From: Phycisphaerae bacterium
GTDB lineage: Bacteria; Planctomycetota; Phycisphaerae; Sedimentisphaerales; Anaerobacaceae
DNA length: 64,000 bases
Direction of reading: 5' to 3'
Assembly: GCA_017993835.1 (NCBI GenBank)
Contig: JAGOLX010000032.1
Location: forward strand, 1 to 64,000
How positions within the stretch are numbered: the first letter of the stretch is position 1; each line of letters starts with the position of its first letter. The notes under the pieces are model-generated. The model saw only the letters and a program-made list of their open reading frames with translations, was not told where the DNA came from and did not search any database. The translations under genes and the position numbers were made by a program. Below are positions 1,154 to 42,662 of the stretch, in pieces.

Positions 1154-1252
1154 CCCGGTTGCTCCTTTCGTCACGTCCACAGCCCAGCGCCCGGCTATGA
1201 TATGCCCAAGCGGGCGCGAAGTCCACCATCCTGACCACCTTGAGAATCTGGA

Positions 1253-1705: not shown

Positions 1706-1769
1706 CTGTCATGTGTCATTCTGGGTTTTTGGGCAGATAATCCACATGACACATGACAGACACACAGGC
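1706..1769. repeat. Word-repeat palindrome A (TGTCATG word)
   Basis: The left arm CTGTCATGTGTCAT (1706-1719) pairs perfectly with ATGACACATGACAG (1746-1759). Each arm is a duplicated 7-base word (TGTCATG, TGTCATT). The loop contains TGGGTTTTTGGGCAGATAA, and the right arm is followed at once by ACACACAGGC (1760-1769). The neighbour at 1804-1878 has the same loop core and tail with a different stem. Confidence 0.75.
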
Positions 1770-1803
1770 ACTCAACTGGGATACATGCCCTACCCCTCGA
1801 CCG

Positions 1804-1878
1804 TTGGCGCTTGGCGTCCTTGGGTTTTTGAGTGAATAACGCCAAGAGCGCCAAACGCCAAGCGCCAAACACACAGGC
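1804..1878. repeat. Word-repeat palindrome B (TTGGCGC word)
   Basis: The left arm TTGGCGCTTGGCGT (1804-1817) pairs perfectly with ACGCCAAGCGCCAA (1855-1868). An extra near-copy of the right arm (1839-1854) precedes it. The arm is a duplicated 7-base word. The loop TTGGGTTTTTGAGTGAATAA and the tail ACACACAGGC (1869-1878) match palindrome A. It lies just upstream of the PocR regulator promoter. Confidence 0.75.
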
Positions 1879-1881
1879 CTC

Positions 1882-1909
1882 TTGGCATCTGGAGCACTAC
1901 GGGTATAAT
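1882..1909 (+). promoter_or_regulatory. Sigma-70-type promoter of the PocR regulator
   Basis: TTGGCA (1882-1887), a 16-bp spacer and a consensus TATAAT (1904-1909) lie about 30 bp before the chosen ATG at 1940. Transcription would start near 1916, giving a short leader. Confidence 0.6.
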
Positions 1910-1939: not shown

Positions 1940-3241
1940 ATGGTGGAATCGCCCAAGTTGACGGACATCCTGACGACGGAGAAGCTCAAGCGGATCGAGC
2001 GGGCGTTCCGCAAACGGTTCGGGCTCGGGCTGGAGACGACCACGCCGGACGGCATGGCGGTGGACCGACTGTGCAGCGAGAACTGTCGGCCGGGGTTTTG
2101 CAGGCTCGTGCAGGCGGTCGGCGAGGGTCGCAGGCGGTGCATCGCGGAACGCAGCCGGGCCATCGAGATCGCGGTCGAGACCGGGCAGTCCTTCATCACG
2201 ATCTGCCACGCCGGGATCGTGCTGGTCTGCGTGCCGGTCGTGGATCGGGATCTCGTGCACGGCGGGCTGTTCTTCGGCAAGTGCCTCTCGGAGCCGGTGA
2301 CGACCTTCCTCGTGGAGGACGTGACTGGGCGTCTGCGCGGCATCCCCATCCAGGAGAGGGAACTGGCGGAGGCCCTGGGCGAGCTGGCGGTCGTGCGGGG
2401 CCGGCAGATCCACAATGCGGCGGAGTTCCTCTTCGACCTGCTCTACGAGGTCGGCGGCTTCGACGCCAAGGTCATCCGCTGGCGAAGGCAGCGAGCCCGC
2501 CAGCAATCGGAGCTGGGCGAGTTCATCCAGGAGCGAAAGAAGCTCGGCGCCCAGTGGCAGTACCCGCTGGAGAGCGAACGCGCCCTGCTGCGGAAGGTCA
2601 AGATCGGCGACCGCACCGGCGCCAAGGAGATCCTCAACTCGATCCTCGGGACGATCCTGTTCAAGGACCTCGGCGACCTGGGCATCCTGAAGGTCCGCCT
2701 GCTGGAGCTGCTCAGCGTGCTGAGTCGCTCGGCCGCCGAGGGCGGCGTGGACGTCCACACCATCCTGGAGAAGAACCTCGCCTACGCCAACAAGGTGATG
2801 CAGATCGACACGCAGGAGGACCTGTGCGCGTGGATCAGCACGGCGCTGAACGAGTTCATCGAGCTGGTGTACTCCTCGCAGGACGCCAGGAAGGTGACGC
2901 AGATCCGACCGGCGATCAACTATCTCGACGCCCACTACGACCGCCCGGTCACGCTCGCGGAGATCGCACGGGCGTCCCACCTGAGCGTGTCGCGACTGGC
3001 CCACTTGTTCAAGGAGCAGATGGGAATGACGCCGATCGACTACGTGACGACTGTGCGGATCGAGCAGGCCAAGGAGCTGCTGCTGGGCACGGATCGCAGT
3101 TGCACGGAGATCGGCTTCGAGGTGGGCTACAACCAGGCGAGCTACTTCACGCGGACGTTCAAGTCGCTGGTCGGCATGACGCCGCGACAGTTCCGCCAGC
3201 GAAACCAGCGGGCGCCGCAGGACGAAGGCCCGGGCGGATGA
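1940..3241 (+). CDS. PocR-domain AraC-family transcriptional regulator
   Basis: 433 aa from the ATG at 1940 (MVESPKLTDI). An earlier in-frame start would begin inside the repeat palindrome and is not favoured. Residues about 10-190 form a PocR-type sensory domain, with the Cys-containing pattern RPGFCRLVQ and ITICHAGIVLVCVPV expected of this PAS-like ligand-binding fold. The middle is a helical linker. The last roughly 105 residues are a double helix-turn-helix AraC domain (AINYLDAHYDRPVTLAEIA, then SYFTRTFKSLVGMTPRQFR). PocR itself controls propanediol use in enterobacteria. The ligand here is unknown and could be a sugar or diol. A consensus promoter precedes it. The gene is isolated, with repeats on both sides and a divergent secreted-protein gene, which is its most likely target. 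Confidence 0.88.
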   Translation: MVESPKLTDILTTEKLKRIERAFRKRFGLGLETTTPDGMAVDRLCSENCRPGFCRLVQAVGEGRRRCIAERSRAIEIAVETGQSFITICHAGIVLVCVPVVDRDLVHGGLFFGKCLSEPVTTFLVEDVTGRLRGIPIQERELAEALGELAVVRGRQIHNAAEFLFDLLYEVGGFDAKVIRWRRQRARQQSELGEFIQERKKLGAQWQYPLESERALLRKVKIGDRTGAKEILNSILGTILFKDLGDLGILKVRLLELLSVLSRSAAEGGVDVHTILEKNLAYANKVMQIDTQEDLCAWISTALNEFIELVYSSQDARKVTQIRPAINYLDAHYDRPVTLAEIARASHLSVSRLAHLFKEQMGMTPIDYVTTVRIEQAKELLLGTDRSCTEIGFEVGYNQASYFTRTFKSLVGMTPRQFRQRNQRAPQDEGPGG

Positions 3242-3445: not shown

Positions 3446-3499
3446 AACCGAGGGGCTTCGTCAGGACAAACGCAGAGTCACCGGACGGGTCTCACGGAT

Positions 3500-3575
3500 G
3501 TCATTGCGAGCGAAGCGAAGCAATCTCCCGAGCCGGGAGTTGAGATTGCTTCGTCGCGATGCTCCTCGCAATGAC
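3500..3575. repeat. CATTGCGAGCGAAG palindromic repeat
   Basis: TCATTGCGAGCGAAGCGAAG (from 3501), followed by CAATCTC, faces GAGATTGCTTCGTCGC...CTCGCAATGA on the other side of a CCGAGCCGGG centre. The whole is a 76-bp near-palindrome. The same type of element (CATTGCGAG / CTCGCAATG) is widespread in unrelated bacteria as a miniature repeat. The rest of 3242-3697 holds no gene. Confidence 0.7.
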
Positions 3576-3697
3576 CTTCCCGGCAGCTCTCCGAAACGGT
3601 TTCGCGTTTGCCCCAGGGGCCTCCTGAACCCCTCTTGCACGCACGCAAGTTCGGCCGTCCCCCCGGAACCTCGGAGGGGGAGTCGTCAGGCACCCGG

Positions 3698-25299: not shown

Positions 25300-26409
<1,110 letters not shown>

Positions 26410-30531: not shown

Positions 30532-30558
30532 CTGAGCCGTCTGCCTCCATGCCGAACA

Positions 30559-30710
30559 AGCACGAAATCCGAAACTCCAAATCCGAAACAAACTCGAATG
30601 ATCGAAATCAGAATGACCGAAACGCTCGCGCTCGTCGCACGCTCCGTTTTGGATTTGGGGTTTGGGTCATTCGTGCTTGTTTCGGATTTCGAGATTCGTG
30701 CTTTGAATTT
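30559..30710. repeat. Word-repeat palindrome (GAAATCCGAAAC word), copy 2
   Basis: Left arm from 30559 carries AAGCACGAAATCCGAAAC, CAAATCCGAAACAAAC and GAATGATCGAAATC. The right arm to 30710 carries the inverse words (TCATTCGTGCTTG, TTTCGGATTTCG, GATTCGTGCTTTG). Same word family as 29403-29541. It fills the gap between nrdR and the ATP-cone gene. Confidence 0.65.
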
Positions 30711-30751
30711 CAGACTTCCGCCCGATCTTCCATTTTTCCGAACCCTACTTT

Positions 30752-31450: not shown

Positions 31451-31491
31451 ATTCTTCAACGAAATCTCTTGGTTCGATTTCGTTGAAGAAT
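31451..31491. repeat. Perfect 16-bp hairpin
   Basis: ATTCTTCAACGAAATC (31451-31466), 9-nt loop, GATTTCGTTGAAGAAT (31476-31491), extended outward by GGCC pairs. There is no T-run, so it is not a typical terminator. It lies directly upstream of the decayed gene at 31519-31854 and may mark the end of that element. Confidence 0.6.
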
Positions 31492-34517: not shown

Positions 34518-34559
34518 CTTCTCATGCCTCGGCGACTTGTCAAGACCTTTGAAAAGTGT

Positions 34560-34995
34560 GATGTTTGATCTTTGATTTTTGATTTCAGAGAGATTTGCCT
34601 TCATCCATGGTCTCTTCCGTATTTTGAGGTTTTGACCGCTGATGTGAAGATCGCAGTCAGCGCGTTGGCTTCGTCCAGGAGGGCTGCCACCCGCTTCGCG
34701 GGCAACAGCGTGCTCTCGATGATCAGTTCGAGCCAGAAGCAGGTTTCATCCGCTTCTTCCTCCACGGTCCCCAATTTGGCCGAGAATTCCGCTTTTGACC
34801 GCGAGCGACATGCGGCCCGGTAGTTCGCGCCAACCGACGTCCCACAACGAACCAATTGGCCTCCGATTGCCCGGCCAATGGTGGTTCTCAGCAGCGCACC
34901 AACGAGCTTCATCACACGCAAGGCAAACTGTTTGGTCCGGATCTTCAGTTCCTCGCTGTTCATCGCCGACGGCCTCAAATCAAGAATCAAACATC
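34560..34995. mobile_element. Candidate S23-gene unit bracketed by word repeats
   Basis: The left side has GATGTTTGAT (34560-34569) followed by CTTTGATTTTTGATTTC. The right side has the exact inverse ATCAAACATC (34986-34995) embedded in AATCAAG, ATCAACC and AGAAATCAG words. The bracket contains only the four-helix gene and interrupts an otherwise tight mur-ddl-ftsQ operon. No transposase is present. The idea of an inserted unit is inference. Confidence 0.4.
34601..34963 (-). CDS. Four-helix-bundle (S23 / Avd-like) protein
   Basis: 120 aa from the ATG at 34963 (MNSEELKIRTKQF; GAGG 9 nt upstream). Pattern of the family first found in 23S rRNA intervening sequences (TIGR02436): FALRVMKLVGALLRTTIGRA, IGGQLVRCGTSVGANYRAAC, RSRSKAEFSAKLGTVEEEAD, ETCFWLELIIES. 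The family forms pentameric helical bundles and is related to the Avd protein of diversity-generating retroelements. Its cell function is unknown. Here it is not in rRNA but sits between murB and ddl, bracketed by inverted word repeats. No reverse transcriptase is nearby. Confidence 0.9.
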   Translation of the reverse strand: MNSEELKIRTKQFALRVMKLVGALLRTTIGRAIGGQLVRCGTSVGANYRAACRSRSKAEFSAKLGTVEEEADETCFWLELIIESTLLPAKRVAALLDEANALTAIFTSAVKTSKYGRDHG

Positions 34996-35015
34996 AACCA
35001 TCAGAAATCAGAATG

Positions 35016-42287: not shown

Positions 42288-42641
42288 GGGGGCGAACGGC
42301 ATCGACCGGATCGCGGATGGATAAGATGCGTGCCCAGGACGCCGGTTGGCCTGGTTAATCATCCGGTACCTAATTTCTAAATGGCAACTACAACTATGCC
42401 ATGGCTGCGTAAATAACGCGGCCCGTCCTGTCGGACTGCGCCTGCGGGTCTGACAAGGGCGTCAACAAGTGGGCTGGCTTCGTCGGTCGTCCGGGCCGAC
42501 GGAGTGAGAAACACCGGACTAGCCGATCGCAGAGCTTGTGGCTTGGCGCTGCGTGACGCGAAATCTCCAATAGGGCCACTACGCACGTAGATGCTTGTCC
42601 TGAAACATCTCGGGACGGGGGTTCGAATCCCCCCGCCTCCA
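42288..42641 (+). ncRNA. ssrA: tmRNA
   Basis: Rescues stalled ribosomes by trans-translation. The 5' end GGGGGCGAACGGCATCGACC is the typical tmRNA start. GGGGGCG pairs with the 3' CGCCTCC (one G-U), and the T arm is GGGGG TTCGAAT CCCCC. A discriminator A at 42641 ends the gene. CCA is not fully encoded (ACTG follows). The tag frame runs from GGC at 42383 to TAA at 42410-42412 and reads GNYNYAMAA, close to the usual ALAA ending. Pseudoknot-like GC-rich segments follow. A minus-strand open frame over this gene is a shadow. Confidence 0.94.
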
Positions 42642-42662
42642 CTGTATTTCACTTGCCATAAG

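Follow-up and report, generated by a model that had tools for sequence, protein, structure and literature searches.

Palindromes A and B belong to a small, lineage-specific family of repeat hairpins that lie between genes. Common descent of its copies shows in the left flank, the loop and the tail; their stems differ as blocks. Positions are those of the window, the whole stretch of 64,000 nucleotides that was analysed; A, B and their parts are given on the plus strand.

Structure of the palindromes and of their family

Palindrome A spans positions 1706-1759. Its left arm, CTGTCAT GTGTCAT (CTGTCATGTGTCAT, 1706-1719), was read from the letters and recovered by a repeat search, and its right arm, ATGACAC ATGACAG (ATGACACATGACAG, 1746-1759), is 100% complementary to it. 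These arms are 14 nt long as originally drawn and 15 nt, again 100% complementary, by repeat search. The loop of 26 nt contains a conserved core, TGGGTTTTTGGGCAGATAA (1722-1740), which is homologous to B, L004, L005, L006 and L007. Palindrome B spans positions 1804-1868, with a left arm TTGGCGC TTGGCGT (TTGGCGCTTGGCGT, 1804-1817) identified in the same two ways, a conserved core TGGGTTTTTGAGTGAATAA (1821-1839) found by a loop pattern match, and a right arm ACGCCAA GCGCCAA (ACGCCAAGCGCCAA, 1855-1868) that is 100% complementary to the left. Its loop of 37 nt carries two additional right-arm words, AACGCCAAG and AGCGCCAA (AACGCCAAGAGCGCCAA, 1838-1854), in a tandem array detected up to position 1868, so that the number of words is unequal between the two arms of B.

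Within the loops, TGGGTTTTTG occupies positions 1722-1731 in A and 1821-1830 in B, and ATAA positions 1737-1740 and 1836-1839. The tail ACACACAGGC, located by exact word search at 1760-1769 and 1869-1878, abuts the right arm without a gap in both palindromes, and GACAT/ACCG lies immediately to the left of the arms. No further exact copies of the 10-mers TGGGTTTTTG and ACACACAGGC occur in the window beyond A and B, and the pattern TGGGTTTTTGN5ATAA is found at two places only, A and B, in the 6.37 Mb genome. When folding was compared with that of shuffled sequence, z-scores of -3.7 to -5.2 were obtained for A and B. The initial annotation had described two palindromes that keep loop and tail and swap the stem, and the arms, the TGGGTTTTTG...ATAA core and the ACACACAGGC tail were all as it gave them. 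It had also described each arm as a 7-base word written twice; this holds for a near-repeat, in which one letter is altered and 6 of the 7 positions repeat, but not for an exact one.

The genome (6.37 Mb in 115 contigs) was searched by BLAST with the A/B region. The family consists of seven copies: A, B, L004 (on C72; E 3.5e-23), L005 (on C51; E 9.7e-18), L006 (on C62; E 1.7e-11), L007 (also on C62, 0.45 kb from L006; E 3.8e-10) and the degenerate L009 (on C70). A search of the genome for the loop or the tail with three mismatches allowed returned zero additional copies. In approximate outline the aligned copies have TGCCCCTGTCCGTGGACC, then the words, TTGGGTTTTTGAGCGAAGAA, the words inverted and ACACACAGGACGCCGACGGGGCAGTCGT; the family ends TGCCCCTGTC and GACGGGGCA are near-complementary to one another. 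TTGGCG words are present in four of the seven copies (B, L004, L005 and the degenerate L009) and TGTCAT words in two (A and L006). L007 is half-swapped, with TTGGCG in the left arm (TTGGCGCTTGGCG) and CCTCAAG words in the right (CCCCAAGGACCTCAAGAACCTCAAG), and its surroundings are rich in CTTGNNNNN words. The number of words per arm is 4 in the right arm of B against 2-3 in the left, 3 against 2-3 in L005, 2 and 2 in A, and 3 and 3 in L006.

A conserved scaffold with a blockwise-different stem, as first proposed from A and B, recurs in L004 and L005 (TTGGCG), in L006 (TGTCAT) and in the half-swapped L007. The suggested exchange for arbitrary words is not supported, since two full stems and one hybrid were found among the seven copies. 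This is not far from the refuting outcome named at the time, in which all other copies carry one of the same two stems. Seven copies are too few for counting the swaps or giving them a direction.

Between stem classes, 12-15 of the 19 loop core positions agree, as do 10-19 of the first 20 tail letters (shuffle p mostly <=0.002, weakest 0.02); the arms share 7 of 14 positions (p about 0.07). L006 (TGTCAT) and L004 (TTGGCG) are 90% identical over 31 nt of tail and flank (E 5.6e-5 for a 126-nt query against a genome), and 19 of their first 20 tail letters agree, against 7 of 14 arm letters. For arms drifting at the scaffold identity (0.79), the probability of at most 7 matches in 14 would be 0.016, a value that is indicative only, with one arm counted and the letters taken as independent although the words repeat. 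The common scaffold is thus homologous and not a chance likeness. A chance likeness of two unrelated palindromes, which the annotation had itself considered and with which the unrelated arm sequences of A and B would agree, is refuted by these shuffle values and by a loop and tail that are homologous in seven copies, with E values down to 1e-23.

The repeat island and word-built hairpins of the genus

A and B lie in the intergenic space that separates a minus-strand upstream gene from an AraC-type regulator with a PocR sensory domain (1940-3241, plus strand; HTH_18 1.3e-25, HTH_AraC 5.3e-20, PocR 3.5e-19). The whole repeat island at 1228-1903, upstream of the regulator, has no counterpart in the corresponding syntenic region of congener G004, where window positions 1155-1227 and 1904-1925 align with positions 1331-1405 and 1469-1490 of L090. 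G004 keeps both flanking genes (75% DNA identity for the upstream gene and 79% protein identity for the regulator), the flanking loci being orthologous at 68-79% identity. With regard to MITE traits, the 676 nt of the island correspond to an island-wide empty site in G004, but 63 other nt are present there, and boundaries or duplications of single elements are not discernible. The downstream gene has a promoter-like sequence, TTGGCA-N16-TATAAT (1882-1909, plus strand), recognised from the letters, with TTGGCG-N16-TATAAT as its G004 orthologue; the tail of B lies 3 nt upstream of it.

The family hairpins occur as island modules alongside REP-type palindromes. A head-to-head REP dimer, GTCATTCCTGC...GCGGGAATGACA, lies at 1367-1457 and was assigned to a dRS3-like CGTC type from a published description (PMC3733652). 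A second copy of this dimer (repeat family D1) was located at 1554-1636 by repeat search, and the two dimers of the GTCATTCC repeat in the island fit the CGTC/dRS3 type (PMC3733652). A REP starting with CTGTCATTCC / TGTCATTCC is also found 32-40 nt from L004, L005 and L006. The genome has five Y1_Tnp matches, one of which is a decayed pseudogene about 360 nt from L004 with GTCATTCC-type repeats on both sides. A Y1 transposase is not favoured as the mover of the word hairpins, since the one decayed copy beside L004 seems to be tied to the REP instead. When Rfam models were compared with the window, a tmRNA gene alone was found (42288-42644; RF00023, 158 bits), and A and B were without a match.

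Related genomes were searched for the scaffold with a free stem, as the initial annotation had proposed, and the window alone matched the exact pattern among 99 relatives. BLAST of the scaffold against 89 family genomes gave nothing convincing in the 88 others; one weak match in congener G006 (L023, E 6.4e-5) may be decayed or convergent. A scan of about 85,000 species with the scaffold pattern gave 14 matches, equal to the estimated chance number. By eye none of the 14 is a family member, with three from a single Nitrospirae MAG and two from Polaromonas being other sequences. No paper containing the word strings was found in open-access text.

The way in which these stems are built, unlike the scaffold, is not restricted to the family, which belongs to a wider set of word-built hairpins in the genus. 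Arrays of short words were counted in 1.12 Mb of the genome (about a sixth) and in 0.17 Mb of congeners. The genomic portion contained 81 arrays of 6-10 nt words, compared with 13 in shuffled sequence; these counts include coding sequence, which will account for some of the unpaired arrays. With the congeners included there were 105 arrays, 34 of which have an inverted partner of at least 9 nt within 110 nt, compared with 2.9 on average and 8 at maximum when flanks were permuted among arrays. A same-orientation partner was present for 7 arrays only. Period 7 was found in 22 of the 34 paired arrays, and a 50 kb E. coli control contained one array and zero pairs. The words seen include GATTTAC, ATCAATC, AATTTCG, AGAAGGTC, CTTGAGCCC, CGTTCATCAG, CACAGAGG, TGTCATG and TTGGCGC.

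Another scaffold family in the genus is marked by the fixed ends TCTCGC...GCGAGA and by CGCNNNGA words whose interiors vary. Its pattern gave 58 matches in 9 genomes and 2 for the control, and as it fixes the word skeleton by design, the interiors alone are informative. Among L157-L177, several copies have left words CGCAAAGA and right words CGCCAAGA (other strand) that are unlike at one fixed position, which gives one mismatch between the arms for each word.

Other word-built or palindromic elements were observed. An apparent hybrid hairpin at L084:10480-10590, whose left arm has GTGGATGC words and whose right arm has ACCTTCTC words, is a second half-swapped case, and part of its loop, GTCCGACC, is common with the AGAAGGTC family. 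Nested word hairpins, CACAGAGG outside and AGAAGGTC inside, occur at L086:2110-2250. In the window, a word hairpin with AAATCCGAA/TTCGGATTT words and a GC-rich loop lies at 30550-30715; related hairpins at L036:6720-6860 and L042:15220-15420 carry a loop stretch of the same kind, 'AATGAC..AAACGCT'. Opposite-sense arrays of 7-nt words (TTTGATT; AATCAAGA/ATCAA) lie about 400 nt apart at 34559-34585 and 34978-35013. The perfect hairpin ATTCTTCAACGAAATC/GATTTCGTTGAAGAAT at 31451-31491 is frequent in the genome (L029, L039, L040, L041, L063, L065, L084), usually with a second hairpin (TTTGAGGGGGAAAAATC...) about 34 nt away and with ends GGGCCTAT/GTAGGCCC. It resembles a MITE-like two-hairpin element, whose second hairpin has been lost from the window copy. 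A loopless perfect palindrome of 32 nt, GCTGTGGGGTGGGTGGCCACCCACCCCACAGC, is present at 25306-25337, and a hairpin of the GTCATTGCGAGCGAAGCGAAGCAATCTC type at 3480-3590 recurs at L073:10597 and L077:8884.

Possible origins of the differing stems

Slippage, with copying between arms or into them, is suggested by the tandem words, the unequal word number and the half-swapped copy. The explanation that we prefer, with about even confidence, is word change by slippage and hairpin template switching in a small repeat family whose hairpins are probably neutral or nearly so. Slipped-strand copying would multiply a word inside one arm. During replication, a template switch across the hairpin (quasipalindrome correction) would copy one arm onto the other and leave loop and flanks untouched, and a new word, once present in one arm, could take over both. 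The copies would spread together with adjoining repeat modules. We infer a faster rate of change in the stems than in the scaffold, with pairing preserved by concerted evolution. As far as sequence can indicate, the hairpins would be neutral or nearly so, probably with no function. Template switching that makes and repairs hairpin stems is documented (PMC8794818, PMC7202029).

A neighbour may have supplied the new word, CTGTCAT being the start of the adjacent REP. The letters CAGA occur in the old arm end (GCGCCAGACACACAGG), in the new one (ATGACAGACACACAGG) and, on the other strand, in the REP (AATGACAGAGT), so that a microhomology switch would be possible. The REP is a possible source of the TGTCAT word, a reading made after the fact, and in this form a local word may be copied, as was suggested earlier, given the REP beginning with CTGTCATTCC near L004, L005 and L006. 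Against the REP as a template, the match is about 8 nt, for which the chance is estimated at about 4% for a 14-nt arm. Against the preferred explanation as a whole, no clean TTGGCG/TGTCAT intermediate was found, TTGGCAT in L009 being at best suggestive. The TCTCGC...GCGAGA family arms keep different word interiors, which indicates that one arm is not always successfully corrected to match the other.

The chief alternative to template switching is recombination between elements. Stems or half-stems would be exchanged as modules between different island repeats, and A and L006 would carry a cassette from another family. The islands combine several repeat modules in a mosaic, L007 and the hairpin at L084:10480-10590 resemble joined halves of two word families, and CTTGGCG word arrays are plentiful in the genus (137 matches, compared with 12 for the reversed control), which together make such exchange a tentative possibility. 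However, apart from the family members A and L006 this genome showed no hairpin of TGTCAT words that could have served as donor, and, with loop and tail in register, two separate exchanges with exact ends would be needed, one for each arm.

Selection on a transcribed RNA or single-stranded DNA stem, in which pairing is needed, the sequence is free and drift is compensatory, would explain the 100% complementary arms of A and B, their folding far better than shuffles and the position of B directly upstream of a conserved promoter-like sequence. Mere pairing does not need the tandem words that are the hallmark here, L007 retains a broken stem, and stepwise-drift intermediates are missing. The G004 site is without such a hairpin although the neighbouring genes are conserved, which argues that the hairpin is dispensable, and this explanation is considered unlikely.

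An active process in the genus by which hairpin stems are rewritten in short words, with a local sequence or an RNA as template and dozens of words circulating in fixed frames, is very unlikely. A templated word writer, such as a reverse transcriptase, that builds stems into a fixed frame is hardly credible: stem blocks do differ between homologous scaffolds and many different words occur within one genome, but no associated enzyme was found in a search for Y1 transposases, the nearest candidate is the Y1 pseudogene beside L004 between its GTCATTCC-type repeats, word variation within arrays is irregular, and known copying errors suffice. Nothing found requires the dedicated process for copying template words that had been envisaged for A and B.

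Known systems and significance

The pattern had been thought to be without precedent, and two known systems precede it. The closest is the P6b stem of the trnL(UAA) group I intron of Nostoc and Calothrix, which is built of heptanucleotides of Class I (TDNGATT) or Class II (NNTGAGT); the whole stem has repeatedly been replaced by the other class in a fixed frame in Nostoc, and the number of words varies on one or both sides (PMC4476775). The arms of A and B likewise consist of tandem 7-nt words, with alternative word classes in the same frame. P6b belongs to one conserved self-splicing intron of cyanobacteria, whereas the A/B family is dispersed and intergenic and uses other words.

The second precedent is provided by the REP super-families with a GTAG or CGTC tag, which form BIME-like clusters and keep an unpaired end tag while stems and loops differ (PMC3733652). 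The likeness lies in short palindromes arranged in islands, and CGTC-type dimers are direct neighbours of A and B. The A/B family differs in its tail ACACACAGG, which is neither a GTAG nor a CGTC tag, in its arms of at least 14 nt of tandem words with loops of 18-37 nt, and in its seven copies in 6.37 Mb, which is not a high copy number.

Intergenic tandem 7-mers are also known from the cyanobacterial STRR heptanucleotide repeats and the heptameric repeats of Xanthomonas and Nostoc, which are abundant, little studied and variable between close genomes (PMC4692102), and from the TAACTGA direct repeats (PMC4679880). These are mostly direct arrays, and a conserved loop and tail with word-swapping inverted arms is not described there (PMC4692102, PMC4679880). 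Quasipalindrome correction likewise makes both arms match and leaves the surroundings unchanged (PMC8794818, PMC7202029); alone it explains the pairing and the block change, but neither why words stand in tandem nor where a new word comes from.

The plentiful hairpins of many words in the genus suggest an under-described class of intergenic repeats beyond the cyanobacterial heptanucleotide repeats, and they offer material for measuring word turnover. If the stems truly turn over as whole words and the loop and flanks are kept, the hairpins would be natural records of inverted-repeat copying errors, and a process of mutation alone could mislead tests that use compensatory changes to detect conserved RNA structure.
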